64,000 nt of DNA from positions 1,612,001 through 1,676,000 of the forward strand of contig NZ_JAKZHW010000001.1 of the NCBI RefSeq assembly GCF_022568775.1. Direction: 5' to 3'. Positions within the stretch are counted from its first letter, which is position 1. Each line of letters opens with the position of its first letter. This DNA is from Sphingomonas telluris (GTDB lineage Bacteria > Pseudomonadota > Alphaproteobacteria > Sphingomonadales > Sphingomonadaceae). The notes under the pieces were generated by a model. It made no database searches, was not told where the DNA came from, and was given only the letters and a program-made list of their open reading frames with translations. The translations under genes were made by a program, and so were the position numbers. Shown here piece after piece: positions 27,663-39,123 of the stretch.

Positions 27663-28828
27663 GCCACCGCTCCGAGCAGGGCTTGGGCCTGGGCCACATC
27701 CTTGTCGCCGCGGCCCGACAGGTTGACCACCAGCACCTCGGCTTCGCCCGCCTCGGCCATCTTCAGCGCCCGCGCGAGTGCGTGGCAGGATTCGAACGCG
27801 GCGATGATCCCCTCGCCCCGCGCCAACTTCACGAAAGCGTCGAGCGCTTCCTCGTCGGTGCTCCCAACATAATCGGCACGGCCGATGTCGCTGAGGTGCG
27901 CGTGCTCGGGTCCCACCGCGGGGTAATCGAGGCCCGCGGAGACCGACCAGGTGTCGTTCACCTGGCCGTCCTCGTTCTGGAGCACCAGAGTCTCGGCGCC
28001 GTGCAGGATACCGTGCGTCCCGCGCTGTATGGTGGCGCCATGCTCTTGGCCGTTGAGCCCCTTCCCCGCCGCCTCGACGCCGATGAGCTTCACGCCCTCG
28101 TCCGGAACGAAGTCAGCGAACATCCCGATCGCGTTGGATCCGCCCCCCACGCAGGCGAGCACGGCATCCGGCAGGCGCCCTTCGGCATCGAGAAACTGCG
28201 CCCGCGCTTCCTTGCCGATCACGCGCTGAAACTCGCGAACCATGGTGGGGAACGGGTGCGGCCCGGCGGCGGTGCCGAGCAGATAGTGCGTGTTCTCGAA
28301 GCTCGCGCTCCAGTCGCGCAGCGCTTCGTTGATGGCGTCCTTGAGCGTCCGGCCGCCGCTTTCGACGGGTACGACCTTCGCCCCCATCAGCTCCATCCGG
28401 AAGACATTGAGCCTCTGCCGCTCGACGTCCTCGGCGCCCATGTAGACGACCGTCTCGAAGCCGAAGAGCGCACCGACGATCGCAGTCGCCACGCCATGCT
28501 GGCCGGCACCGGTCTCCGCGATCAGGCGGCGCTTGCCCATGCGGCGTGCAAGCAGTGCCTGCCCGAGCACCTGGTTGGTCTTGTGGGCGCCGCCGTGGAG
28601 CAGATCCTCGCGCTTGAGATAGATGCGCGCCTTGCCGCCGAGGTTGCGGCACAGCGTCAGGGGCGTTGGCCGCCCGGCATAATTGGCGAGAAGCTCGTCG
28701 AGCTCGGCGCGAAACGCCGCGTCGCCTTCCGCATCGAGGAACGCTGCCTCGAGCTGTTCGAGCGCGGGTACGAGAATTTCAGGAACGAAGCAGCCGCCGA
28801 AGCGGCCAAAGCGGCCATCCTGGCGCAT
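27659..28828 (-). CDS. trpB: Tryptophan synthase beta subunit (389 aa)
   Basis: PLP enzyme joining indole and serine. PLP lysine Lys83 in [18 protein letters not shown] and the phosphate-binding GGGSNA loop are intact; the COMM-domain region is present. Its ATG overlaps the trpCF stop (TGATG) and its stop overlaps trpA (ATGA). Length is normal for TrpB1. Confidence 0.97.
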
Positions 28829-30192
28829 CAGGCAGTCCTCCGGCAGGCCGGGCGCGCGGCCTCGAAGAGCGCCGCGACTTTCTCTGGATCCTTACGCCCA
28901 GGGGAAGCCTCGACACCGGAACAGACGTCGATCCCATAGGCGCCGACAGCCTGCGCATCCCGCGCGTTAGCTGGGCCAATGCCGCCAGCGATGAACGCGT
29001 CCGGCAGTTCGGGGCGACCGGCGAGAAGACTCCAATCGAACATCTGTCCCGTACCTCCGGTGCGCCCATTCGCCTTCGTGTCGTAGAGGATTCGGTCCGC
29101 GCCCGGCCGTTCGGGCGAAACCTCGTTCGTCACCGCGCTCACAGCCCAAATCTCGCAATCCTCAGGAAGCTTTTCGCGCAATTGGTGCAGGTCGGACTCT
29201 TCGCCGTGAAGTTGCACTGCGGCGAGGCCGATCTCGTTGGCCATTCCAGCGACGAAGTCGAAGTCCTGATCCTGAAAGACGCCGATCGGCTTGGCCCCTG
29301 CGCTTCGCGCCGCATTTGCGATCACGTCCGCTCGATCGGTGACCTCACGAGGGCTGGCGTCGGCGAAGATGAGGCCGGCATGCGTCGCCTTGCCCGCCGC
29401 CATCGACGCATCGTCCTCGCTCGTCAGGCCGCAAATCTTGATGTTGCCGTAGACCAGCGCACGGGCGGCGTGCGCCACGTCCGACGAGGCCATGAGCGAG
29501 GAGCCGACGAGGAACGCGTCGACGTTCTTGGCGAGCCGCTCGACGTCGCGCCGGTCGCGGACGCCGGACTCGCTGATCACCAGCCTGTCGTCGGGCACTC
29601 CGGTCACTAGCCGCTCCGTCACCGCGAGGTCGGTCTTCAGCGTGCGCAGGTCGCGGTTGTTGATGCCGATGATTTGCGCGCCGAGGGCCAGCGCCCGGTG
29701 CAACTCAAGCTCGTCGTGCACTTCGACGATGACGTCCATGGCGAGGCGGTGAGCTTCGGCCATGACCGCCGCTGCTGCCGCGTCATCGAGCATGGCCATG
29801 ATCACCAGCGCCGCGTCTGCGCCGTGCAGGCGCGCTTCGGCGACCTGCCGCGGATCGACGATGAAGTCCTTCGCGAGGATCGGTCCGTCGAACCGTCCGC
29901 GCACTGTCCGCAAGTCGTCCAGGGAGCCGCTGAAATAGGGTGTGTCGGTGAGGACGCTGATCGCATCGGCGACCGGCGCGTAGGCGGCGACCGCCTGCTC
30001 GACGCTGAAGCTGCTACGATGGCCCGAGGGAGACGCCTTCTTCACCTCCATGATGAAACGTGCGCCGGGCTTCGCCAGCGCCTCGCGCAGGCTGCGCCGG
30101 GTCGGCTCCGGGTCGAAGCTCGTGCCCGCCAGGCGATCGGCAACATCGCGTCGCTTGCGCTCGGCGATTTCGGCAAGAACGCCTTCAGCCAT
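28828..30192 (-). CDS. trpC: Bifunctional indole-3-glycerol phosphate synthase / phosphoribosylanthranilate isomerase (454 aa)
   Basis: One continuous frame joins TrpC (about 1-248; [29 protein letters not shown]) to TrpF (about 249-454). The TrpF half begins [13 protein letters not shown] with its catalytic cysteine at 254 and carries GGIGPANA near the end. TrpC-TrpF fusion is typical of enterobacteria and some other lineages, whereas alphaproteobacteria usually keep separate genes. I chose ATG 30192, which overlaps the trpD end by 8 nt and gives the usual [15 protein letters not shown]-terminus. An in-frame extension to 30213 exists. Confidence 0.94.
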
Positions 30193-31249
30193 TGCTCGCC
30201 TCGACGTAGGCATCGAGAAGCTTGCCGGCCTTGCCAGAGGCGAGAGCTTGACGAGCCTGCTCAGCTCCTTCGCGAAGGCTCGCGGCCTTTCGGGCCGTTT
30301 GCAGCAAGGCGGCGGCGTTGAGGATCACCATGTCCTGCTCCGACTCCGCGCCAGCGCCGTCCATGAGCGCTCGAAAGCGGGCAGCGTTCTCCGCAACGTC
30401 CCCGCCGGTCACGACCTGCAGCGGCGCACGCTCCAGACCCGCATCTTCGGGCGTGATGGTTTCTTCCGTCAGCTCGTGGTTGGAGAGGCGCACCGCGCGC
30501 GTTTCGCCATGAAGCGCCACTTCGTCCAGACCCGATCCGTGAACCACGAGCGCCTCCTCCACGCCCATCGCATCGAGCGTCTGCGCAATCCTCCGCAGCA
30601 TGCGCGGGTCGGCCACGCCCAACAGCTGAACCGGCGGCCGCGCGGGATTGATGCAGGGCCCGAGCAAATTCATCACCGTCCGCACCGAAAGCTGCCGGCG
30701 GACGAGCGCCGCATGCTTCATCCCTGGGTGATAGGCGGGCGCGAACAGGAAGCAGAAGCCGGTCTTGTCGAGCAGCTCCCGCGCCTTTGCCGGACCGACG
30801 TCGATGCGCGCGCCGAGGGCTTCCAGCACATCCGCCGATCCGCAGCGCGAGCTGACGCTTCGATTGCCGTGCTTGGCGACAGGCAGCCCGGCTGCGGCCG
30901 CGACGAACGCGACGGCCGTCGAAATGTTGATCGATCCGGACGAGTCGCCTCCCGTCCCGCAACAGTCGGCGAACAGATAGTCGGGCCGCTCGAACGGCTG
31001 CGCCGCCGCGAACAGGCCGCGCGCGGCGCCGATCATTTCCTCGGCGGTCTCGCCCTTCATCCGGAGTGCGACGAGCGTCGCGGCGATTTCCGCCGGCTCC
31101 AGCTTGCCGAGCACGAGGCGTTCGAAAAGATGCTCCGCCTGTTCGAGCAGGAGGTCTTCGCCGTCGAGCAGGCGCGGAAGCGGATTGGGCACGGGCCCGG
31201 TGTCGGCAACGGGGTGGCGTACCGGTGTGACGTCTTGAGGCTGAAGCAT
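30185..31249 (-). CDS. trpD: Anthranilate phosphoribosyltransferase (354 aa)
   Basis: Transfers phosphoribose from PRPP to anthranilate. Glycine-rich PRPP motif CCGTGGDSSGSINIST near residue 97; KHGNRSVSSRCGSAD; NLLGPCINPA. ATG 31249 has GAGG 7 nt upstream; the in-frame TTG at 31270 is less likely. First structural gene of the reverse trp operon, directly behind trp attenuator 2. Confidence 0.95.
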   Translation of the reverse strand: MLQPQDVTPVRHPVADTGPVPNPLPRLLDGEDLLLEQAEHLFERLVLGKLEPAEIAATLVALRMKGETAEEMIGAARGLFAAAQPFERPDYLFADCCGTGGDSSGSINISTAVAFVAAAAGLPVAKHGNRSVSSRCGSADVLEALGARIDVGPAKARELLDKTGFCFLFAPAYHPGMKHAALVRRQLSVRTVMNLLGPCINPARPPVQLLGVADPRMLRRIAQTLDAMGVEEALVVHGSGLDEVALHGETRAVRLSNHELTEETITPEDAGLERAPLQVVTGGDVAENAARFRALMDGAGAESEQDMVILNAAALLQTARKAASLREGAEQARQALASGKAGKLLDAYVEASNG

Positions 31250-31267
31250 GGTGATCCTCGCGAATGG

Positions 31268-31293
31268 CAATAAAAAACCCGCCGGTGGCGGGT
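31268..31293 (-). terminator. Intrinsic terminator of trp attenuator 2
   Basis: On the minus strand, ACCCGCC (31293-31287), 3-nt loop, GGCGGGT (31283-31277), then a TTTTTT-ATT run. It lies between leader peptide 2 and trpD. The stem sequence closely resembles that of trp attenuator 1. Confidence 0.85.
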
Positions 31294-31426: not shown

Positions 31427-31514
31427 GCGCTATTCCTCGCGTTTGGGATCCCTTATGTCAAGGCAATCCACCGCCCAGCTTGACCCTTTGGGCGGCGTTG
31501 CCCATCGCGGGCCG

Positions 31515-32303
31515 ATGGACGTCCCCGCCGACCTGATGGCCTTTGCCGAAGAGCTCGCGGCCGCAGCGCGTGGGGAAACGCTCCATCGCTGGACCGCGAC
31601 GGTCGCGGCCGACGACAAGGGCAACGACGCCTACGATCCGGTGACCGACGCCGACCGCGAGGCGGAGCGGGTCATGCGCGACCTCATCCGGAGCCGCTAT
31701 CCCGACCATGGCGTGACCGGGGAGGAATGGCCAGATCAGCCAGCGAACGGTCCCTTCGGCTGGTCGCTGGATCCCGTGGATGGGACTCGGTCCTTCATCT
31801 GCCGCCTTCCAAATTGGGTGACCCTCGCGGGGCTATTGCACGACGGGCGGCCTGTTCTTGGACTGATCGACGCACCGTGCCTGGACGAACTCGTCGTCGG
31901 TCACGGCGCAGAGGCATGGCTGATCTCCGGCGGAGGGCGAACGCCTATCCGCACGAGCGGCTGCATAGACCTCACCGACGCGCGACTGTCGACGACGGAC
32001 CCCTTCCTCTTCGACGGCGGGTCGGCGGAAGCCTTCGACACGGTTCGCCGGGCCGTCCGCGTCACGCGATACGGGCACGACGGCTACGCCTACGCACGGC
32101 TTGCGGCCGGCTCGATCGATCTCGTTGTCGAGAGCGACCTCAAGCCGCACGATTACAACGCGCTGATCCCGGTCGTTCGCGGCGCCGGCGGGGTCATCGG
32201 TGACTGGCGCGGCGGCGGCGATTTCGCGCGCGGCAAGGTCATCGCGGCGGCAAGCCGTGAGCTCTACGAAGTCGCCGTCCGGTCCTTCGAAGCCTTCGCG
32301 TGA
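31515..32303 (+). CDS. hisN: Histidinol-phosphatase of the inositol-monophosphatase family (262 aa)
   Basis: Metal-dependent phosphatase fold: DPVTDADREAE, GEEWPD, the signature SLDPVDGTRSFI and LKPHDYNALIPVVRGAGG. HisN-type enzymes remove phosphate from L-histidinol phosphate. The assignment is supported by context, because the HisB part of the adjacent his operon lacks the HAD phosphatase domain and no other candidate is in the window. I chose ATG 31515 because residues before it look non-conserved; ATG 31455 is in frame. Its 3' end overlaps hisIE on the opposite strand by 40 nt. Another inositol-monophosphatase-type substrate cannot be excluded. Confidence 0.82.
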   Translation: MDVPADLMAFAEELAAAARGETLHRWTATVAADDKGNDAYDPVTDADREAERVMRDLIRSRYPDHGVTGEEWPDQPANGPFGWSLDPVDGTRSFICRLPNWVTLAGLLHDGRPVLGLIDAPCLDELVVGHGAEAWLISGGGRTPIRTSGCIDLTDARLSTTDPFLFDGGSAEAFDTVRRAVRVTRYGHDGYAYARLAAGSIDLVVESDLKPHDYNALIPVVRGAGGVIGDWRGGGDFARGKVIAAASRELYEVAVRSFEAFA

Positions 32304-32923
32304 CGCGCCCTCAATAAGGCGACAACGTCGTCCCAACTGAAGCCGCGCGCCTCCATCAGGACGGCGACGTGGTAGAGCAGGTCGGCGACCTCCTCGACGC
32401 AGCCCTTAGCGTCGCGCCCGACGCCGGCGAGGGCCACTTCCACGCCTTCCTCGCCGATCTTCTTGCCGATGCGCTCCGGCCCCTCGTCGAGGAGCTTCCG
32501 CGTGTAGCTGCTTGCGTCGCCCAAAGCTGCCCGCTCGCTGATGATGTCGGACAGTTCCGACAGCCAGCCTGGCCCCGTCGGTTCGGCGCCGAAACAGCTT
32601 TGCGTGCCGAGATGGCAAGTCGGTCCCTCCGGATCGGCCAGCACCAGCAAAGAATCGTCGTCGCAATCGGCGAAGACCCCGTGCACCTTGAGACGGTTGC
32701 CGCTCGTCTCCCCCTTTTGCCACAGCCTCTCTTTGGAGCGGCTGTAGAAGGTCGCAAGGCCCGTTCCGAGCGTACCCGCCAGCGCTTCGGAGTTCATATA
32801 GCCGAGCATCAGCACTTGGCCGGTCCGGCGGTCCTGGACCAGTGCAGGCAGCAGCCCGTCCATCTTCTCCCAGTCGAGGGAGGCGACGTCGGCCTCGGTC
32901 AGCGGCGCACTTCGATCCCGCAT
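32264..32923 (-). CDS. hisI: Bifunctional phosphoribosyl-AMP cyclohydrolase / phosphoribosyl-ATP pyrophosphatase (219 aa)
   Basis: HisI domain (about 1-115; [49 protein letters not shown]) fused to a HisE domain (about 120-210; [29 protein letters not shown]). This HisIE fusion is the enterobacterial and Bacteroidetes arrangement; alphaproteobacteria usually have separate hisI and hisE. ATG 32923 overlaps the hisF end by 25 nt. Last gene of the his operon, with its 3' end antisense to hisN. Confidence 0.95.
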
Positions 32924-33663
32924 GTCGCGAGGAACTCCTTCAGCTCGGGGATGGCGATCAGCCGGTCGTGGAAGACGGTCGCGGCGAGCGCGCCGCTGGC
33001 GCCAGCATCGAATGCCTCACGGAAATGTTCGGGCGCACCCGCGCCGCCCGATGCGATCACCGGCACGGTGACGGCGTCGACTACCTCTTTCGTGTGCGCG
33101 ATGTCGTAGCCAGTCCGGACGCCGTCGTTGCGCATGCAGTTGAGCACGATCTCGCCAGCGCCGCGGTCGACCGCCTCGCGCAGCCAGTCGAGCGTGCGAC
33201 GCCCGGTGTCGCGGCTGCGGTCCGGGCGGCCAGTATATTGCTGGACGAAGTAATCGCCATCGCGCGAGTAGGTGTCGACGCCGATCACGACACACTGGCT
33301 CCCGAAGGCGCTGGCGAGTTCGTCGATTAGCTCGGGCCGCTCCAGCGCGGGCGAATTGATTGACACCTTGTCCGCGCCCGCGGCGAGCCACGCGGAAGCC
33401 TCGTCACGGCTGCGCAAACCGCCCGCGACGGCGAAGGGAATGTCGATCACCGCCGCGATGCGGTGAACCCACTCGCTCGACAGCGAGCGGCCCTCCGCAC
33501 TCGCGCTGATGTCGTAGAAGACGAGCTCGTCCGCGCCTTCCTCACGGTAGCGCAGCGCCTGCTCGACAATGTCGCCGGCGTCGCGGTGGTCGCGGAACTT
33601 TACGCCTTTGACTACGCGGCCGTCCTTCACGTCGAGGCAGGGGATGATCCTACGCGCGGGCAA
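32899..33663 (-). CDS. hisF: Imidazole glycerol phosphate synthase, cyclase subunit (254 aa)
   Basis: TIM-barrel cyclase working with His[16 protein letters not shown] (6-20) with a catalytic Asp; [43 protein letters not shown]. The only sensible start is TTG 33663, with a strong GAGGAGG 9 nt upstream, overlapping hisA by 14 nt. Wording such as INSPAL, QYTG and TLDWLREA matches gamma/Bacteroidetes-type HisF rather than the alphaproteobacterial form (visual judgement). Confidence 0.95.
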
Positions 33664-34369
33664 GGCCGAGAGCCTCCTCGAGCGCGATGCGGCCTTCCCA
33701 CAGCGCCTTGCCGATGATCGCGCCGTCGGTGTTGAGCCGCTCCAGGTCGCTCAGCGACGAAACCCCGCCTGACGCTTGCACCGCCAGCTGCGGCAAACGC
33801 CGTCCAATCTCTTCGTACAGGTCGACGTTCGGGCCCTGGAGCATGCCGTCCCGGCCGATGTCGGTCACGAGGAGGTGCCGCACATCCGGGTAGAGTGCGG
33901 CGACGTCCCAGAGGCTCTGACCGGTGTCCTCGGTCCAGCCTGCGACGGCCACAAGCGGCGTTCCTTTGACAAGGCGTACGTCAAGCGAAAGCACGATGCG
34001 ATTGGCGCTAAAGTCGTCGATCCAGGCACGAACCACGTCCGGACGCTTCACCGCAAGGCTCCCGACCACGATCCGGGAGACACCAGCGTCGAACATGCGC
34101 GCAAGCTGGTCGCGCTCGCGGTAGCCACCGGCAACCTGCAGCCTCAGCGGCGCGGAGCGCGCGAGCTCCGCAATGACGTCGTGTTGCACCGGCTGCCCGG
34201 CCTTCGCTCCATCAAGATCGACGACGTGCGCCCACTCGGCACCGGCGGCGGCAAAGCTCCGCAACGCCTCTAGCGGCTCGGTCGGATACGCGGTGACCTC
34301 GTCGAAGCGCCCCTGCTGAAGGCGCACTGCGCGGCCACCGATCAGGTCCATCGCGGGATAGATGATCAT
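33650..34369 (-). CDS. hisA: ProFAR isomerase (239 aa)
   Basis: Phosphoribosylformimino-AICAR phosphate isomerase, a TIM barrel. [17 protein letters not shown] with catalytic Asp8; VVGSLAVK; second catalytic Asp in [20 protein letters not shown] 34369 overlaps the hisH stop (ATGA); a 24-codon upstream extension lies within hisH. Order hisH-hisA-hisF is the conserved core of his operons. Confidence 0.96.
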
Positions 34370-34944
34370 GCGACGAACGCCTGAAGAAACCGCGATCCGA
34401 CGACCCCGGAGCGCTCGGGGTGAAACTGCGCGCCGAGCCAATTGCCCTGCCGGACCACGGCCGGAATCCTGGTCCCGTAATCAGCGGTGGCGACTGTCGC
34501 CGGACCGTCCTCGCACGCATAGCCATGAGCGAAATAGACGTAGTCCCCGCTGTCGACTCCCAAGTCCGGATCGGTCACCTTGACCTTGCTCCAACCCATG
34601 TGCGGCACGGGCATGCCCGGTGCGGGCCGAAGCTGCCGGACCCTGCCGGGGATGATGCCGAGGCATTCGGTCTCGGCTTCCGCGCTGCGGTCGAACAGCA
34701 ATTGCATGCCGAGGCATATCCCGAGCGCAGGCTGTTCCAGCGAGCGCAAGCAATCGCGAAGGCCGCGTTCCGCAAGCCGCTCCATCGCATGACCCGCCGC
34801 ACCTACGCCGGGAAGAACCACGCGGTCGGCGCCCGCGATCTCCCCGGCGTCAGCGGTGACCATCGGCGACACGCCGAGCCTCTCGAAGGCCAGCTGGATC
34901 GAACCGATGTTTCCGTACGCCAGATCGACGATGGCCAGTTTCAC
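34366..34944 (-). CDS. hisH: Imidazole glycerol phosphate synthase, glutaminase subunit (192 aa)
   Basis: Class I glutamine amidotransferase delivering ammonia to HisF. N-terminus KLAIVDLAYGNIGSI, oxyanion-region LPGVGA, nucleophile Cys77 in GICLGMQLL, and QFHPERSG near residue 173 supplying His and Glu. It overlaps hisCB and hisA by ATGA. Confidence 0.96.
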   Translation of the reverse strand: MKLAIVDLAYGNIGSIQLAFERLGVSPMVTADAGEIAGADRVVLPGVGAAGHAMERLAERGLRDCLRSLEQPALGICLGMQLLFDRSAEAETECLGIIPGRVRQLRPAPGMPVPHMGWSKVKVTDPDLGVDSGDYVYFAHGYACEDGPATVATADYGTRIPAVVRQGNWLGAQFHPERSGVVGSRFLQAFVA

Positions 34945-36596
34945 AACACGCCCTTGGTGCTGGGCAGCGCATCGCCCTCACGGCGAATGGCGTCGCGCAG
35001 CGCACGGCCGAACGCCTTGAAGCAGGCTTCGGTCTTGTGGTGGTCGTTCTCGCCGTCGACCTTGACGTGGATCGCGGCGCCCATGCTGTCCGCAAGCGAG
35101 CGGAAGACGTGGCGCGTCATCTGCGTCGGATAATCGCCGATGCTTGGCTGGGCGAACTCGCCCTCGAAGCGGCAATAAGGGCGTCCTGACAGGTCGATGA
35201 GGACCTGGGCCTCCGCTTCGTCCATCGGCAAAGTGAAGCCGAAGCGACGGATGCCGCGCTTGTCCCCGAGCGCTTGGGAGAGCGCCGTTCCGAGGGCGAT
35301 GGCGCAATCCTCGATGCTGTGGTGGGCATCGATTTCCGTGTCGCCGTCGCAATCGAGGACGAGGCTGAATCCGCCATGGGCGGCGACCTGGTCCAGCATG
35401 TGATCGTAGAACGGAACGCCCGTGTCGATCTTGCGCGGAGCGGCGCGGTCGAGGTCCACCGCGACGGCGATTTCCGTTTCCTTGGTGTCGCGAACGACTT
35501 CCGCACGGCGCGATGCGGAGGCCTCCAGGTTCACGCCGAATGCGCTGAGGAGCGCATCATTCTCCGCATCCGCACCGATGGTGATGCGAACGCCGCCTGG
35601 CGCAGCATTAGGGCGAAAGCGGACGCGGATACCGAGCGCGCGAAGCCTCGCCGCCAGCGCCGGGGCGTCGTCGACTTCCAGGAAGAGGAAGTTGCCGCCA
35701 CTGCCATGCACCCGGCGCACGATGGGCGAGCTTTGGAGCGCCTCCGCAAGCCGGTCGCGATCGGCTTTCAGCCGCTCGATGCGCTCCTCATGAACCGAAC
35801 GACGCGAGGGTGAGAGCGCCGCCATGGCGGCGTCCACGGAGAGGCTGGGCATCGGATAGGGCGGCAGGGCGCGGGCTGCGATTTCGATGAGGCCGGGCTC
35901 GCCGATTGCGCAGCCCACGCGCGCACCCGCCAGGCCAAAGGCCTTCGACAGGGTCTTCAGGACGACGAGATTGGGCCGACGAGTGGCCTCTGTCGCGAGA
36001 CTCGGCGTGGTCGAGAAGTCGAGATAGGCCTCGTCCGCGACGATGATCGTGTTTGGAAGCGCGTCGGCGATTTTCAGGATCGCGGCGGGATCGACCTCGT
36101 TCCCGGTCGGGTTGTTCGGCGTGCAGATGAAGGCGAGCCTGAGGTTCTGCTCCTCTCCCACCGCGGCCAGAAAGGCATCGGCATCGAAGTCGAAGCCGTT
36201 CGTCAGCTTCGCCTCGACCAGGCGCGCGCCCTGAAGCCGGACGAAGTGCGCATAGGCAGAGAAACTCGGCGTGCAGATGGCGACGGCGTCCGTGCCCGGC
36301 CGGCAGTAGGAGCGGATGAGTATGTCGATCGCGTCGTCGGCACCGCGCGTGATGACGAGATTTGCGGGTTGGACGCCGTAGAGCGCAGCCAGCGCTGCCT
36401 TCAGCTTCGACGGCTGCGGCTCGGGATAGCGGTTGACGCTGGCCGCGAGCGGTCCCTCGACGAGCGGCGGAAAGGGGTTCTCGTTCGCGTCGAGACGGAT
36501 GGCGTTCGGATTCGCCAGCGCATTGTTGGCCGCGATGTCGAACGGCTCGAGAGCGAGCACTTCGGGACGGGCGAGGCGTTCGGCGAGCGAAGTCAT
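34941..36596 (-). CDS. hisC: HisC-HisB fusion: histidinol-phosphate aminotransferase + imidazoleglycerol-phosphate dehydratase (551 aa)
   Basis: A single open frame. Residues 1-355 form a complete class I/II aminotransferase (LDANENPFPPL 35-45, TPNNPTGNEV about 159-168, PLP Lys218 in TLSKAFG, GVRIT near the end). Residues about 362-551 form a complete IGP dehydratase (FYDHMLDQVAAHGG about 396-409, DAHHSIEDCAIALG about 423-436, ENDHHKTEACFK about 516-527). The linker is only about a dozen residues (VNLEASASRRAEV). The HAD phosphatase half of enteric HisB is absent. All metal and PLP residues are present, so both activities are expected. ATG 36596 overlaps hisD. Confidence 0.93.
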   Translation of the reverse strand: MTSLAERLARPEVLALEPFDIAANNALANPNAIRLDANENPFPPLVEGPLAASVNRYPEPQPSKLKAALAALYGVQPANLVITRGADDAIDILIRSYCRPGTDAVAICTPSFSAYAHFVRLQGARLVEAKLTNGFDFDADAFLAAVGEEQNLRLAFICTPNNPTGNEVDPAAILKIADALPNTIIVADEAYLDFSTTPSLATEATRRPNLVVLKTLSKAFGLAGARVGCAIGEPGLIEIAARALPPYPMPSLSVDAAMAALSPSRRSVHEERIERLKADRDRLAEALQSSPIVRRVHGSGGNFLFLEVDDAPALAARLRALGIRVRFRPNAAPGGVRITIGADAENDALLSAFGVNLEASASRRAEVVRDTKETEIAVAVDLDRAAPRKIDTGVPFYDHMLDQVAAHGGFSLVLDCDGDTEIDAHHSIEDCAIALGTALSQALGDKRGIRRFGFTLPMDEAEAQVLIDLSGRPYCRFEGEFAQPSIGDYPTQMTRHVFRSLADSMGAAIHVKVDGENDHHKTEACFKAFGRALRDAIRREGDALPSTKGVL

Positions 36597-37888
36597 GCCG
36601 CCACCTGCAGCCGCGCGTCGGCGGCCCGTGCATGGGCTTCCAGCGCTTCCATGCGCGCCAGCACGGCGGCAGGGCGCGCAATCTTGCTCGCGGCGTCCGC
36701 AGTCACGGTCTGGACGCTCATCGCCTTGAGGAACGTGTAGACGGAGACGCCTCCCCAAGCGCGCGCCGCGCCGTCTGTCGGAAGGACGTGGCTCGAGCCG
36801 GCGAGATAGTCGCCGAAGGTCTCGGCGGCGAAGGGACCTGCGAAGACTGCTCCGGCATTGCGAATGCCGGCGATGAGGGCTGCGCTAGGCTCGACGGCGA
36901 GCGACAGGTGTTCGGGCGCGTAGGCGTTGGCGACTTCCACGGCTTGGTCGAGGTCAGCCACTTCGATGATCCGGGATCGCTTGAGCGAAGCCTCGGTGAT
37001 GTCACGGCGAGGCAACGAACGCGCTCGGTCCTCGACGATCGTTGAAACCGTGTCGGCCAGCGCCGACGAGCAGCTGACCAGCAAGACCTGAGCGCTGGCA
37101 TCATGCTCGGCCTGACTCAGCAGATCGGCGGCTACGAGTTGGGCGTCCGAGCTGTCGTCCGCGATCACCAATAGTTCACTTGGTCCGGCAGGCATGTCGA
37201 TTGCCGGGCCGCCGACCTCACCCGAGACGAGGCGCTTGGCCTCGGCGACCCAGGCGTTGCCGGGACCGCAGATCTTGTCGATCTTCTTGATACCGCCCGC
37301 ACCGTAGGCCAGCGCAGCAATCGCCTGCGCGCCGCCGACCGTCCAGATCCGCCGAATGCCCGACAAATCCGCCGCGAGGGCGATTAGGTCATCGAGCCCG
37401 CCCTCCGGTCGTGGCGGGGTGACCGCCACGATCTCGCGAACGCCGGCGGCGCGCGCAGGAATTGCGAGCATCAGGAGCGATGAGAAGAGCGGAGTCCTTC
37501 CGCCCGGAATATAGAGACCGACGCGATCGATCGCCCGCCAGGTCTTCGTCACCGTCAATCCGGGAACCGTCTCCAGTGAGAAATCTTTCGGGAGGCTTGC
37601 CTCGTGGAAACCGCGGATGCGCTCGGCCGCGAATTCCATGGCCTCGACTTGTTCGGGGGAGAGACGCTGGCGGGCGGCTTCCGCGAGCGGAGCGACTTCG
37701 ACTTCGCGGGGCTCCTCGCCGTCCAGCTCGAAGGCAATCTCGGCGAGGCCCGCCCAGCTGCGCGTGCGCACTTCCTCCACGATTGAGCGGACCTTCGCCT
37801 GCAGCTGCTCGTCAACGCGCTGCAACGGCCGCGCAAGCGCTTCGCTACGCCCGTCCGCGTCCAGGTCCTTCCAGACGAGCCGCTTCAC
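36593..37888 (-). CDS. hisD: Histidinol dehydrogenase (431 aa)
   Basis: NAD-dependent Zn enzyme for the last two oxidations to histidine. GLYIPGGRTPLFSSL, GGAQAIAALAYG, CGPGNAWVAEAKRLV, DMPAGPSE; Zn-ligand region LLSQAEHDASA and catalytic Glu-His in AYAPEHLSL. GTG 37888 overlaps the hisG stop; a long upstream open frame is a shadow of hisG. The stop overlaps hisCB by ATGA. Confidence 0.97.
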   Translation of the reverse strand: MKRLVWKDLDADGRSEALARPLQRVDEQLQAKVRSIVEEVRTRSWAGLAEIAFELDGEEPREVEVAPLAEAARQRLSPEQVEAMEFAAERIRGFHEASLPKDFSLETVPGLTVTKTWRAIDRVGLYIPGGRTPLFSSLLMLAIPARAAGVREIVAVTPPRPEGGLDDLIALAADLSGIRRIWTVGGAQAIAALAYGAGGIKKIDKICGPGNAWVAEAKRLVSGEVGGPAIDMPAGPSELLVIADDSSDAQLVAADLLSQAEHDASAQVLLVSCSSALADTVSTIVEDRARSLPRRDITEASLKRSRIIEVADLDQAVEVANAYAPEHLSLAVEPSAALIAGIRNAGAVFAGPFAAETFGDYLAGSSHVLPTDGAARAWGGVSVYTFLKAMSVQTVTADAASKIARPAAVLARMEALEAHARAADARLQVAA

Positions 37889-38775
37889 AGCATCATCTTT
37901 TCGATCGGCACGACGAGAATGGCTGAGGCCCCTGCGCCCTTCAGCTTCTGGAGCGTCTCCCAGAAGACCGATTCCTGGCACACCGCGTGCACCGCAAAGT
38001 GACCGGGCCGGCCATGCAGCGGCAGGATCGTCGGCGCCTCCGCCCCGGGCAGAAGCGAGGTGATGCGCTCCAGCGCCTCCTCGCTCGCGTTGAGCATGAT
38101 GTATTTGGATTCCTTGGTCGCCAGCACGCCGTCGATGCGGCTCAGGAGCTGACCGGCAATCGCCTCGCGCTCCTCGTCGAGCGGCTTGCGCGTGCGGATC
38201 AGCACCGCCTGGCTGTTCAGGACAGTCTCGACCGGGCGGAGGCCATTGGCCTCCAGGGTCGCGCCGGTCGACACGAGGTCGCAAATATAAGGCGCGATCT
38301 CTAGGCGGGGAGCCAGCTCCACGGCGCCTTTCATCTGCACCACCTCGGCGTCGACCTTCCGCTCGTCGAGGAAGCGGCGAAGGAGGCGCGGATAGGAGGT
38401 CGCGATGCGCTGGCCCGAGAGCGATTGGACGCCCTCGTACGGAAGGCGCTCCGGCGCGGCGATGCGCAGGCTGCACTGCCCGAACCCGAGTTCCGCCAGC
38501 ACGTCGAACCCCCGCTCGTTGGAGCCAAGGGCGAATTCCTCGAGCACGTTCTGGCCGACGATGCCGAGCTCGCAGGCGCCGTCGCTGACGAAGGTCGGGA
38601 TGTCGTCGTCGCGCACGAACATCAGGTCCGCGGGGAAGTTCGCCGCCCTCGCGCTGAGGCTGTTCTTCCCGGCTTCGATGCGCAGGCCCGACTCCCGGAG
38701 CAGGTCGCGGCTGAGGTCGGACAGGCGGCCCGATCTCTGGAGCGCGATGTGGAGACGGCTGCGATCAACGAGCAT
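37885..38775 (-). CDS. hisG: ATP phosphoribosyltransferase, long form (296 aa)
   Basis: First enzyme of histidine synthesis. The catalytic part (RLHIALQRSGRLSD, VRDDDIPTFVSDGACELGIV, the PRPP loop LVSTGATLEANG) is followed by the ACT-like histidine-sensing domain (about 225-296, ending IEKMML). This is the long HisG found in enterobacteria and Bacteroidetes. Many alphaproteobacteria instead use a short HisG with HisZ. ATG 38775 overlaps the TrpR-like gene by 11 nt; an ORF extension to 38880 lies within that gene. Confidence 0.96.
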   Translation of the reverse strand: MLVDRSRLHIALQRSGRLSDLSRDLLRESGLRIEAGKNSLSARAANFPADLMFVRDDDIPTFVSDGACELGIVGQNVLEEFALGSNERGFDVLAELGFGQCSLRIAAPERLPYEGVQSLSGQRIATSYPRLLRRFLDERKVDAEVVQMKGAVELAPRLEIAPYICDLVSTGATLEANGLRPVETVLNSQAVLIRTRKPLDEEREAIAGQLLSRIDGVLATKESKYIMLNASEEALERITSLLPGAEAPTILPLHGRPGHFAVHAVCQESVFWETLQKLKGAGASAILVVPIEKMML

Positions 38776-39094
38776 TGGACTTGCCCAAAGCATCGATGGC
38801 GCTGCGATAGCCCTGATGCGGCTCCTGCCGCAGGAAACGCCCGACCCGCACGATCGTCGTCGTGCTGACGCCGGTCCCATCGTGGATATCCCGATAGGAA
38901 AGGTCGGTGCCGTCGAGCAGGCGCGCGACGTGCCAGCGTTCCGCCAGCGCGCGAAGCTCCGACGGCGTGCACAGGTCCCGCAGCAGCCGTCCCATCTCTT
39001 CGCGAGTCCGCGGCGTCAGCAGCGCATCGCACAGCTGATCCGTCAGCTTCTCCACGTCCTTGGTGGGCGCCAATGCTGTCGTCGTTACGGCCAT
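38765..39094 (-). CDS. TrpR-like (YerC/YecD family) DNA-binding protein, candidate his regulator (109 aa)
   Basis: A small helical protein. The segment EMGRLLRDLCTPSELRALAE and the HTH SYRDIHDGTGVSTTTIVRVG (about 71-90) match the Trp-repressor superfamily's YerC/YecD group. It is the first gene of the his operon and overlaps hisG. Members of this group have been proposed as histidine-pathway repressors, so local autoregulation is plausible. An inverted repeat straddles the -10 box just upstream (39098-39123). Whether it senses histidine, tryptophan or nothing cannot be told. ATG 39094 is chosen over an upstream in-frame ATG at 39136. Confidence 0.85.
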   Translation of the reverse strand: MAVTTTALAPTKDVEKLTDQLCDALLTPRTREEMGRLLRDLCTPSELRALAERWHVARLLDGTDLSYRDIHDGTGVSTTTIVRVGRFLRQEPHQGYRSAIDALGKSNAR

Positions 39095-39097
39095 TTT

Positions 39098-39123
39098 GTT
39101 CCAACGTGTTAATATAGTGGAAC
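39098..39123 (-). promoter_or_regulatory. Inverted repeat over -10 box of his operon promoter (candidate operator)
   Basis: On the minus strand GTTCCA and TGGAAC (6-bp perfect arms) flank 14 nt containing TATATT (39116-39111), a good -10 hexamer. The site ends 4 bp before the regulator's start codon. This position would suit repression by the TrpR-like protein. The -35 box (perhaps TTTCGT, 18 nt upstream) is weak. Confidence 0.55.

Follow-up and report, generated by a model that had tools for sequence, protein, structure and literature searches.

A HisC-HisB fusion protein in Sphingomonas telluris, its relatives without the catalytic lysine and its kinship with HisNB

Textbooks use the histidine biosynthesis (his) operon to illustrate gene fusion and the evolution of operons, and the fusion of consecutive enzymes is usually explained by channelling or by coordinated expression. 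A 2023 review gives hisD, hisN, hisB, hisH, hisF, hisI and hisE as the fused his genes, and hisC is not named among them in its accessible part (PMC10138114). Here we describe hisCB, a gene in a 64,000-nucleotide stretch of the Sphingomonas telluris genome (NZ_JAKZHW010000001.1, positions 1,612,001 to 1,676,000 of the forward strand; the whole stretch is called the window below), which joins histidinol-phosphate aminotransferase (HisC) to imidazoleglycerol-phosphate dehydratase (HisB, IGPD). The original prediction for this locus, made by a reader of the DNA alone, held that such a fusion is not a textbook arrangement, and the list in the review agrees with it.

As for other sources, in their accessible text, PMC1963479 contains no occurrence of hisC, PMC6432763 and PMC7696456 have "hisC-hisB" only within the name of an operon, PMC3485032 has a deletion named hisCBHAFI, and PMC11237513 and PMC3896937 contain no HisC-HisB fusion. 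We found no published account of a HisC-HisB fusion, or of the Brevundimonas domain described below, in a coverage of the literature that was partial and mostly without subscription journals. Automatic annotation already records both domains in one protein. The fusion is present in databases, yet new to the literature as far as this coverage goes.

The fused gene and its distribution

The hisCB frame opens with an ATG at 36596 and closes with a stop at 34941-34943, giving 551 codons plus the stop and no internal stop. Its HisC part belongs to the TIGR01141 equivalog (294.8 bits, cut-off 276.55, model positions 1-346 of 349), and its HisB part belongs to NF002111 (252.3 bits, cut-off 231, residues 362-551) and matches PF00475 (203.2 bits, cut-off 27, residues 392-533). 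The predicted uninterrupted HisC-IGPD frame of 551 residues is thus borne out by the frame itself and by two complete domains above curated cut-offs. Retention of the catalytic residues of both enzymes, also predicted, was found across 40 aligned fused proteins, in which the HisC residues K218, Y57, N162, D188, Y191, R226 and R337, presumably catalytic, are unchanged. The HisB metal ligands H399, H425, H426, E429, H496, H519, H520 and E523 are equally invariant in this alignment (the two-manganese ligand list comes from the accessible part of PMC10978614 and was transferred by motif order). K218, which binds pyridoxal phosphate (PLP), and all other tallied residues are unchanged in 30 loci of the window's genus, and all 119 proteins tallied among the 120 fused ones listed have K218, a single shorter protein having been omitted. 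hisCB truly joins HisC to IGPD, each with its active site preserved in sequence, and both parts are probably active enzymes.

The linker had been put at about twelve residues; the actual gap between the two model matches is eight. Among the aligned fused proteins, 30 of 32 rows of the sphingomonad type have a linker of 8 residues and all 8 rows of the SAR116 type one of 10, with variable sequence; such a near-constant length may reflect an ordered arrangement or simply shared ancestry. No HAD phosphatase family was found in the hisCB product in family-model scans (one of which listed 25 of 79 families). The N-terminal HAD phosphatase of HisNB is absent, residues 10-353 being HisC, and the HisNB model PRK05446 gives 290.5 bits, below its cut-off of 443. 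Automatic sources name the window-type protein histidinol-phosphate transaminase.

A protein search gave 4424 matches, and the 120 listed are all two-domain proteins of 527-552 residues carrying both Pfam domains. Within the window's genus the fusion is intact in one frame in 47 of 71 genomes, that of S. telluris included; the count omits G398, where the gene is in three pieces, and G432:C85, an extra copy with stops. An indel at the junction is excluded by the open junction frame in these 47 genomes, and separate hisC and hisB genes overlapping by ATGA were not met in the genus. That an assembly or sequencing error created the fused frame we therefore consider practically negligible as an explanation, since the same open frame recurs in the 47 genomes and both domains in the 120 listed proteins. 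The broken or fragmented copies G432:C85 and G398:C1 lie in assemblies of 70% and 86% completeness.

hisD was found in 48 of the 71 genus genomes, namely the 47 with the intact fusion and G398. All 23 genomes without hisD also lack hisCB (for instance G112, G120, G141, G154, G166, G176, G237, G261, G289 and G300); among good-quality genomes of the genus, 16 of 53 have no hisD. Histidine synthesis may have been lost in these 23 genomes, making them auxotrophs. In the 47 intact genomes, the extra copy of G432 apart, the fused locus gives the only TIGR01141 match at E <= 1e-60, a threshold that covers strong matches and leaves room for weaker paralogues. The fused HisC is the sole strong HisC match in the window's genus. 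G422, which has no fusion, shows a TIGR01141 match of that strength elsewhere; it was discarded as a fusion candidate (30% match, no hisD).

A genome scan placed HisC and HisB in one open frame at 25 of the 80 loci kept. These belong to sphingomonads, including Sphingosinicella and Sphingorhabdus soli, to Peiella sedimenti, to a metagenome-assembled genome labelled Brevundimonas (L078), to SAR116/Puniceispirillum and to unnamed alphaproteobacteria. The fused HisC of Peiella sedimenti and that of L078 have the PLP lysine. L078 groups with Peiella sedimenti by its fused HisC; it may have been mislabelled, or the genus may be a mixed one. Among 385 genomes sampled across the class, at least 8 besides that of S. 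telluris give one unbroken match along almost all of the query (G738, G554, G649, G655, G815, G658, G570 and G743), and G500, G713 and the truncated G525 likewise have the two parts in frame. In an order-wide sample (396 genomes), no HisC was found in the flanks of at most 1.5 kb on either side of IGPD at the 30 best-scoring loci, whose HisB is 42-50% identical to that of the window. In-phase spans in Streptomyces/Kitasatospora and Desulfosporosinus were ruled out as fusions by at least one stop between the neighbouring hisC and hisB, and L087 was ruled out as a junction case, its partial HisC match and its HisB lying in different frames.

HisC domains without the PLP lysine

A second type of fused protein occurs in genus g146, which is Brevundimonas by the database names of near-identical and related proteins. 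Of its 131 genomes, 118 have a match, which in 109 spans the full length and contains no stop. The position of the PLP lysine is occupied by Leu in 117 proteins and by Met in 1, out of the 118 tallied among the 120 listed (shorter ones omitted), so that the lysine required of a HisC is absent; against TIGR01141 (cut-off 276.55) the fused domain reaches 97.4 bits (P0189) and 90.4 bits (P0121). An alignment of 26 proteins shows that N162, Y191, K218 and the N-terminal arm bearing N38/E39 have gone from all 26, and R326 and F112 are lost too; D188, S217, R226, R84 and G85 are kept in all 26, Y57 in 23 and R337 in 22. The IGPD ligands checked are intact in the same alignment. The related genera g370 and g365 have Phe, Tyr or Leu at the lysine position, as judged by eye. 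Sources name the Brevundimonas-type proteins HisB or HisC/HisB despite the loss of the lysine. In family f70 (60 genomes; Caulobacteraceae, judging by the names of related records), an in-frame two-part HisB occurs in 11 genomes and the HisB part only in 44, with no match in 5. A tree in which the dead forms (the Caulobacteraceae-type rows together with L155) share one origin withstands testing (p 0.442), so that a single origin is possible. A stand-alone HisC is found in 129 of the 131 g146 genomes and may serve other pathways as well.

Nei-Gojobori omega was calculated on the best-scoring loci; the values ignore codon bias, and distant pairs are near saturation. Its median is 0.33 for the dead domain and 0.13 for the HisB of the same proteins (495/496 pairs, 32 loci), and 0.30 for the active HisC and 0.19 for HisB in the window's genus (393/435 pairs, 30 loci). 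In the 15 closest pairs the dead domain has values of 0.06-0.34, and none of the 32 loci contains a stop. The dead domain is under purifying selection close to that on a working HisC.

A third state is seen in Oceanicaulis, Marinicauda, Glycocaulis, Woodsholea and Hyphobacterium, which we take to be members of the family Maricaulaceae. Their HisB is mostly 375-405 residues long with an N-terminal domain of about 200 residues; the proteins are listed with PF00475 only, and no aminotransferase match was found in Pfam or NCBIfam in the 3 proteins scanned. A profile of this N-terminal domain, built from 90 of 99 rows, has recognisable homology to HisC: it matches HisC 231-356 (score 46.7, probability 85.5%), with a second, weaker colinear match at HisC 61-93 (score 31.0, probability 17.9%); the highest score among 200 column shuffles is 22.5, and the reversed template gives 15.2. 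The PLP core between the two stretches was not found in the profile match. Judged from this homology, Maricaulaceae-type HisB keeps only a remnant of HisC. Against less diverse HisC or Brevundimonas-type rows the best probability is 27-37%. The N-terminal domain varies fast (median pairwise identity 0.33 against 0.80 for HisB in 99 proteins). The family of G523 is represented by one genome, and the Maricaulaceae type has thus no within-family count.

A short N-terminal domain without similarity to HisN has been described in the HisB of Balneolota, according to the accessible part of PMC8305728. In two Balneolales loci of our set (L114 and L117), the N-terminal domain of HisB has about 135-150 residues and, by eye, no HAD motif; it may be a decayed HisN, in parallel to the decayed HisC.

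Kinship with HisNB and the surrounding operon

In a HisB tree of 85 rows, 22 separate HisB (17 alphaproteobacterial, 4 actinobacterial and 1 Firmicute) are divided from 63 others with support 100/92, and every HisNB and every fused form lies on the 63-row side. The approximately unbiased (AU) test rejects a tree that groups the fused forms with the 17 separate alphaproteobacterial HisB (p 0.002) and does not reject one that keeps the fused forms in a single clade (p 0.408). The best tree nests the fused forms among HisNB rows, beside the gammaproteobacterial HisNB L106 (weak support, 87/64). By its place in this tree, the IGPD domain of the window belongs to the HisNB lineage and not to the separate alphaproteobacterial HisB. 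In the HisC tree (61 rows; L182 was too short and left out), the fused HisC group with gammaproteobacterial HisC (100/95) and the stand-alone HisC of the Brevundimonas genus are set apart (100/100); the p value for fused HisC alone forced together is 0.239. The HisC of L156 and L157 (G456 and G587), next to which no HisB was detected, groups with the fused HisC of L147/L151 (96/80), possibly as a result of fission or of loss of the HisB part.

The kinship of HisB suggests that HisC probably replaced the HisN phosphatase. In HisNB-type operons the candidate start of hisNB overlaps the stop of hisC by 4 bases at 8 of 14 loci, and an in-frame loss of the HisN part, which has about 160-185 residues there, would consequently give precisely this fusion; we infer such a loss as the route to hisCB. 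According to the accessible part of PMC5516325, an inositol-monophosphatase-type HisN is general in Sphingomonadales and Caulobacterales, so that loss of the HAD phosphatase would be affordable. The gene order, the long HisG, hisIE and the YerC gene are gammaproteobacterial traits of the window's operon. A YerC gene was found upstream of the his genes in 5 of 32 HisNB loci (L106, L107, L111, L113 and L116) and in 30 of 72 fused loci, many of which are short or repeated.

Several results pull the other way. Three rows labelled separate, the alphaproteobacterial L161 and the Balneolales L114 and L117, fall on the HisNB side of the HisB tree, five stand-alone alphaproteobacterial HisC lie inside the group of fused and gammaproteobacterial HisC, and a HisC tree that unites the fused with all stand-alone alphaproteobacterial HisC withstands testing (p 0.104). 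In 27 of the 32 HisNB loci, the gammaproteobacterial L110 and L115 included, no YerC gene was detected, and the HisN candidate of the window stays under the TIGR02067 cut-off of 275.15. Moreover, the AU test leaves room for a HisNB clade that excludes the fused forms (p 0.217), which would suit HisCB and HisNB being independent fusions to one IGPD lineage, with HisN never present in the ancestor of HisCB. The nesting of the fused forms among HisNB, weakly supported as it is, and the likeness of the HisCB and HisNB operons speak against independent fusions, and we hold them to be rather unlikely. One further HisN-IGPD protein, P0341 (543 residues), has two near-identical IGPD copies in tandem and may be an assembly artefact.

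The operon of the window is compact and has the gammaproteobacteria-like order yerC-hisG-D-CB-H-A-F-IE (Table 1), with four-base overlaps at the hisD/hisCB (ATGA) and hisCB/hisH junctions. hisIE and the convergent inositol-monophosphatase-type gene overlap tail to tail by 40 bases (32264-32303); a gene of this type lies close to the operon in 12 named loci of the fusion scan. PF08645, a family matching in E. coli, was not found in the S. telluris genome, a result for a single family whose control matches 2 of 14 genomes. The YerC gene is a candidate counterpart of HisR, reported from Xanthomonadales, Rhodobacterales and Caulobacterales in the accessible part of PMC9413887. The alpha/gamma HisR motif of that source has 2 matches in the 64 kb against 0.53 expected, and 11 of 100 shuffles reach 2 or more; the match before the YerC gene is a weak hint that this gene may be autoregulated.

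Table 1. Features of the hisCB operon in the window
Feature	Position	Strand	Evidence and remarks
hisCB, fused histidinol-phosphate aminotransferase / imidazoleglycerol-phosphate dehydratase	34941..36596	minus	551 aa, 58,975 Da
HisC domain, residues 10-353	35538..36569	minus	TIGR01141; PLP lysine K218
Linker, residues 354-361	35514..35537	minus	gap between HisC and HisB model matches
IGP dehydratase (HisB) domain, residues 362-551	34944..35513	minus	PF00475, NF002111
Possible HisR operator directly upstream of YerC gene	39097..39116	minus	3 mismatches to motif; weak
YerC/YecD TrpR-family gene, candidate HisR histidine repressor, operon head	38765..39094	minus	TIGR02531 above cut-off, PF01371
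hisG, long form with HisG_C domain; start uncertain	37885..38775	minus	TIGR00070 and TIGR03455 above cut-off, PF08029
hisD, histidinol dehydrogenase; GTG start inferred	36593..37888	minus	TIGR00069 451.7 bits
hisH	34366..34944	minus	TIGR01855
hisA; start inferred	33650..34369	minus	TIGR00007 218.1 bits, below cut-off 228.95; PF00977
hisF	32899..33663	minus	TIGR00735 above cut-off
hisIE fusion	32264..32923	minus	NF002747 251.9 bits, cut-off 187
Inositol-monophosphatase-type HisN candidate (histidinol phosphatase); start uncertain	31482..32303	plus	TIGR02067 250.7 bits, PF00459

Close to the his operon, a bifunctional TrpCF (NF006945, 478 bits, cut-off 380) adjoins TrpD (28828-30213 and 30185-31270, both minus strand); its position is only a hint that the two may have been acquired jointly. 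The TrpCF fusion is present in E. coli. It is also present in C. glutamicum, according to the accessible part of PMC3896937.

Why the enzymes stay joined

The explanation that we favour, and consider fairly probable as a whole, combines the loss of HisN, a surface position of HisC on the IGPD 24-mer and a later entrenchment of the tie. A compact, gammaproteobacteria-like his operon would have spread into several alphaproteobacterial groups; in-frame loss of the HAD phosphatase HisN from hisNB would have joined the end of hisC to IGPD, the phosphatase step being supplied by an inositol-monophosphatase-type HisN. The product would be one polypeptide with an active HisC on the N-terminus of an active IGPD, the latter forming its usual 24-subunit shell, of about 1.4 MDa with HisC attached. 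HisC domains would lie outside this shell and pair into dimers, and the two enzymes would catalyse steps 6 and 7 independently. After the joining, IGPD would have come to rely on its N-terminal partner in order to fold or assemble; in genomes with a second HisC, the fused one could lose catalysis, even its PLP core, without being shed. Both the 24-mer of HisCB and the dependence of IGPD on its partner are thus put forward as probable.

The original prediction saw in the fused aminotransferase dimer an unusual large assembly. HisC on the surface of a 24-mer would indeed be unusual, yet no difficulty. In the accessible part of PMC10978614, plant IGPD is a 24-mer of 432 symmetry whose N-terminal sheet faces outwards, and this assembly is said to be shared by different kingdoms. 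Octahedral symmetry has 12 two-fold positions per 24 subunits and could accommodate 12 HisC dimers without linking particles. The point is also weaker than claimed because the same IGPD lineage already bears an N-terminal partner, HisN.

It was further predicted that the fusion might channel imidazole-acetol phosphate from IGPD to HisC. That the fusion is kept for this purpose would fit the consecutive pathway steps, the absence of another strong HisC match in the window's genus, the intact fusion in 47 of the 48 hisD-bearing genus genomes and the near-constant length of the linker within each type. However, the Brevundimonas-type tie persists after the loss of the PLP lysine, in genomes that nearly everywhere have a separate HisC, and the order of the partners matches that of the operon and not that of the reactions. 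Channelling is thus not supported so far, and we regard it as improbable. As the tie outlives catalysis, structural entrenchment is favoured over it; its survival after the death of HisC suggests that IGPD depends on its partner or, with lower probability, that the domain has found a new regulatory use. More specifically, the dead HisC of Brevundimonas and related Caulobacteraceae-type genera and of Maricaulaceae could be an obligatory scaffold or a regulatory or ligand-sensing domain of IGPD, with shell assembly depending on HisC, a proposal to which we give somewhat less than an even chance.

Alternatively, the pseudo-HisC domains could be functionless baggage, decaying on the way to loss. 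Their size shrinks from about 350 residues in the active form to about 280 in the Brevundimonas type and about 200 in the Maricaulaceae type, the Maricaulaceae-type domain has low identity, and, compared with the HisB of the same proteins, the dead domain (0.33/0.13) is less constrained than the active one is (0.30/0.19). The purifying selection and the lack of stops in the 32 loci speak against this, as do the 109 of 131 g146 genomes with a full-length, stop-free match, and baggage seems to us a doubtful account. A very improbable one is that a separate HisB is made by internal initiation or by proteolysis at the linker: V355 is encoded by GTG in the window, and ATG, GTG or TTG occurs somewhere in codons 348-364 at 17 of 30 genus loci, but without a fixed position, GTG at codon 355 being found in 8 of the 30 and no such codon in 13.

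Entrenchment following redundancy also has results to answer for, besides the relaxation and the fast variation of the Maricaulaceae-type domain just given. Of the 13 g146 genomes that lack the fused gene, 12 have a stand-alone HisC, and G940 has the fused gene but no stand-alone HisC; L078, despite its Brevundimonas label, retains the lysine; G743 combines an intact fused HisC with a stand-alone one above the cut-off, and G649 has a stand-alone HisC of 242 bits, below it. The pair in G743 shows that redundancy alone does not cause decay.

One fusion thus exists in three natural states, intact in sphingomonads and SAR116, dead but conserved in the Brevundimonas type and a remnant in the Maricaulaceae type, which make the question why fused enzymes stay fused testable within a single protein family. 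If the proposal of a scaffold or regulatory domain is true, active and dead versions separate catalytic from architectural reasons for gene fusion. For annotators, the transaminase name of the window-type protein and the HisB or HisC/HisB label of the Brevundimonas type, despite its absent PLP lysine, are a warning.

Among known systems, HisNB of the E. coli type is the closest: it shares with HisCB the IGPD lineage, the operon order, an N-terminal partner and two active sites per chain, and differs in that this partner is the HAD phosphatase HisN and not the aminotransferase HisC. The HisB of Balneolota resembles the decayed forms in being an IGPD with an N-terminal domain of no recognised activity in the accessible part of PMC8305728; that domain may be a remnant of HisN and not of HisC, a comparison made by eye on two sequences. 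hisIE, HIS7/hisHF, HIS4 and TrpCF are likewise fusions of enzymes of the same pathway, usually from neighbouring genes, and hisCB differs from them in joining hisC, a gene outside the fused his genes named in the accessible part of PMC10138114.

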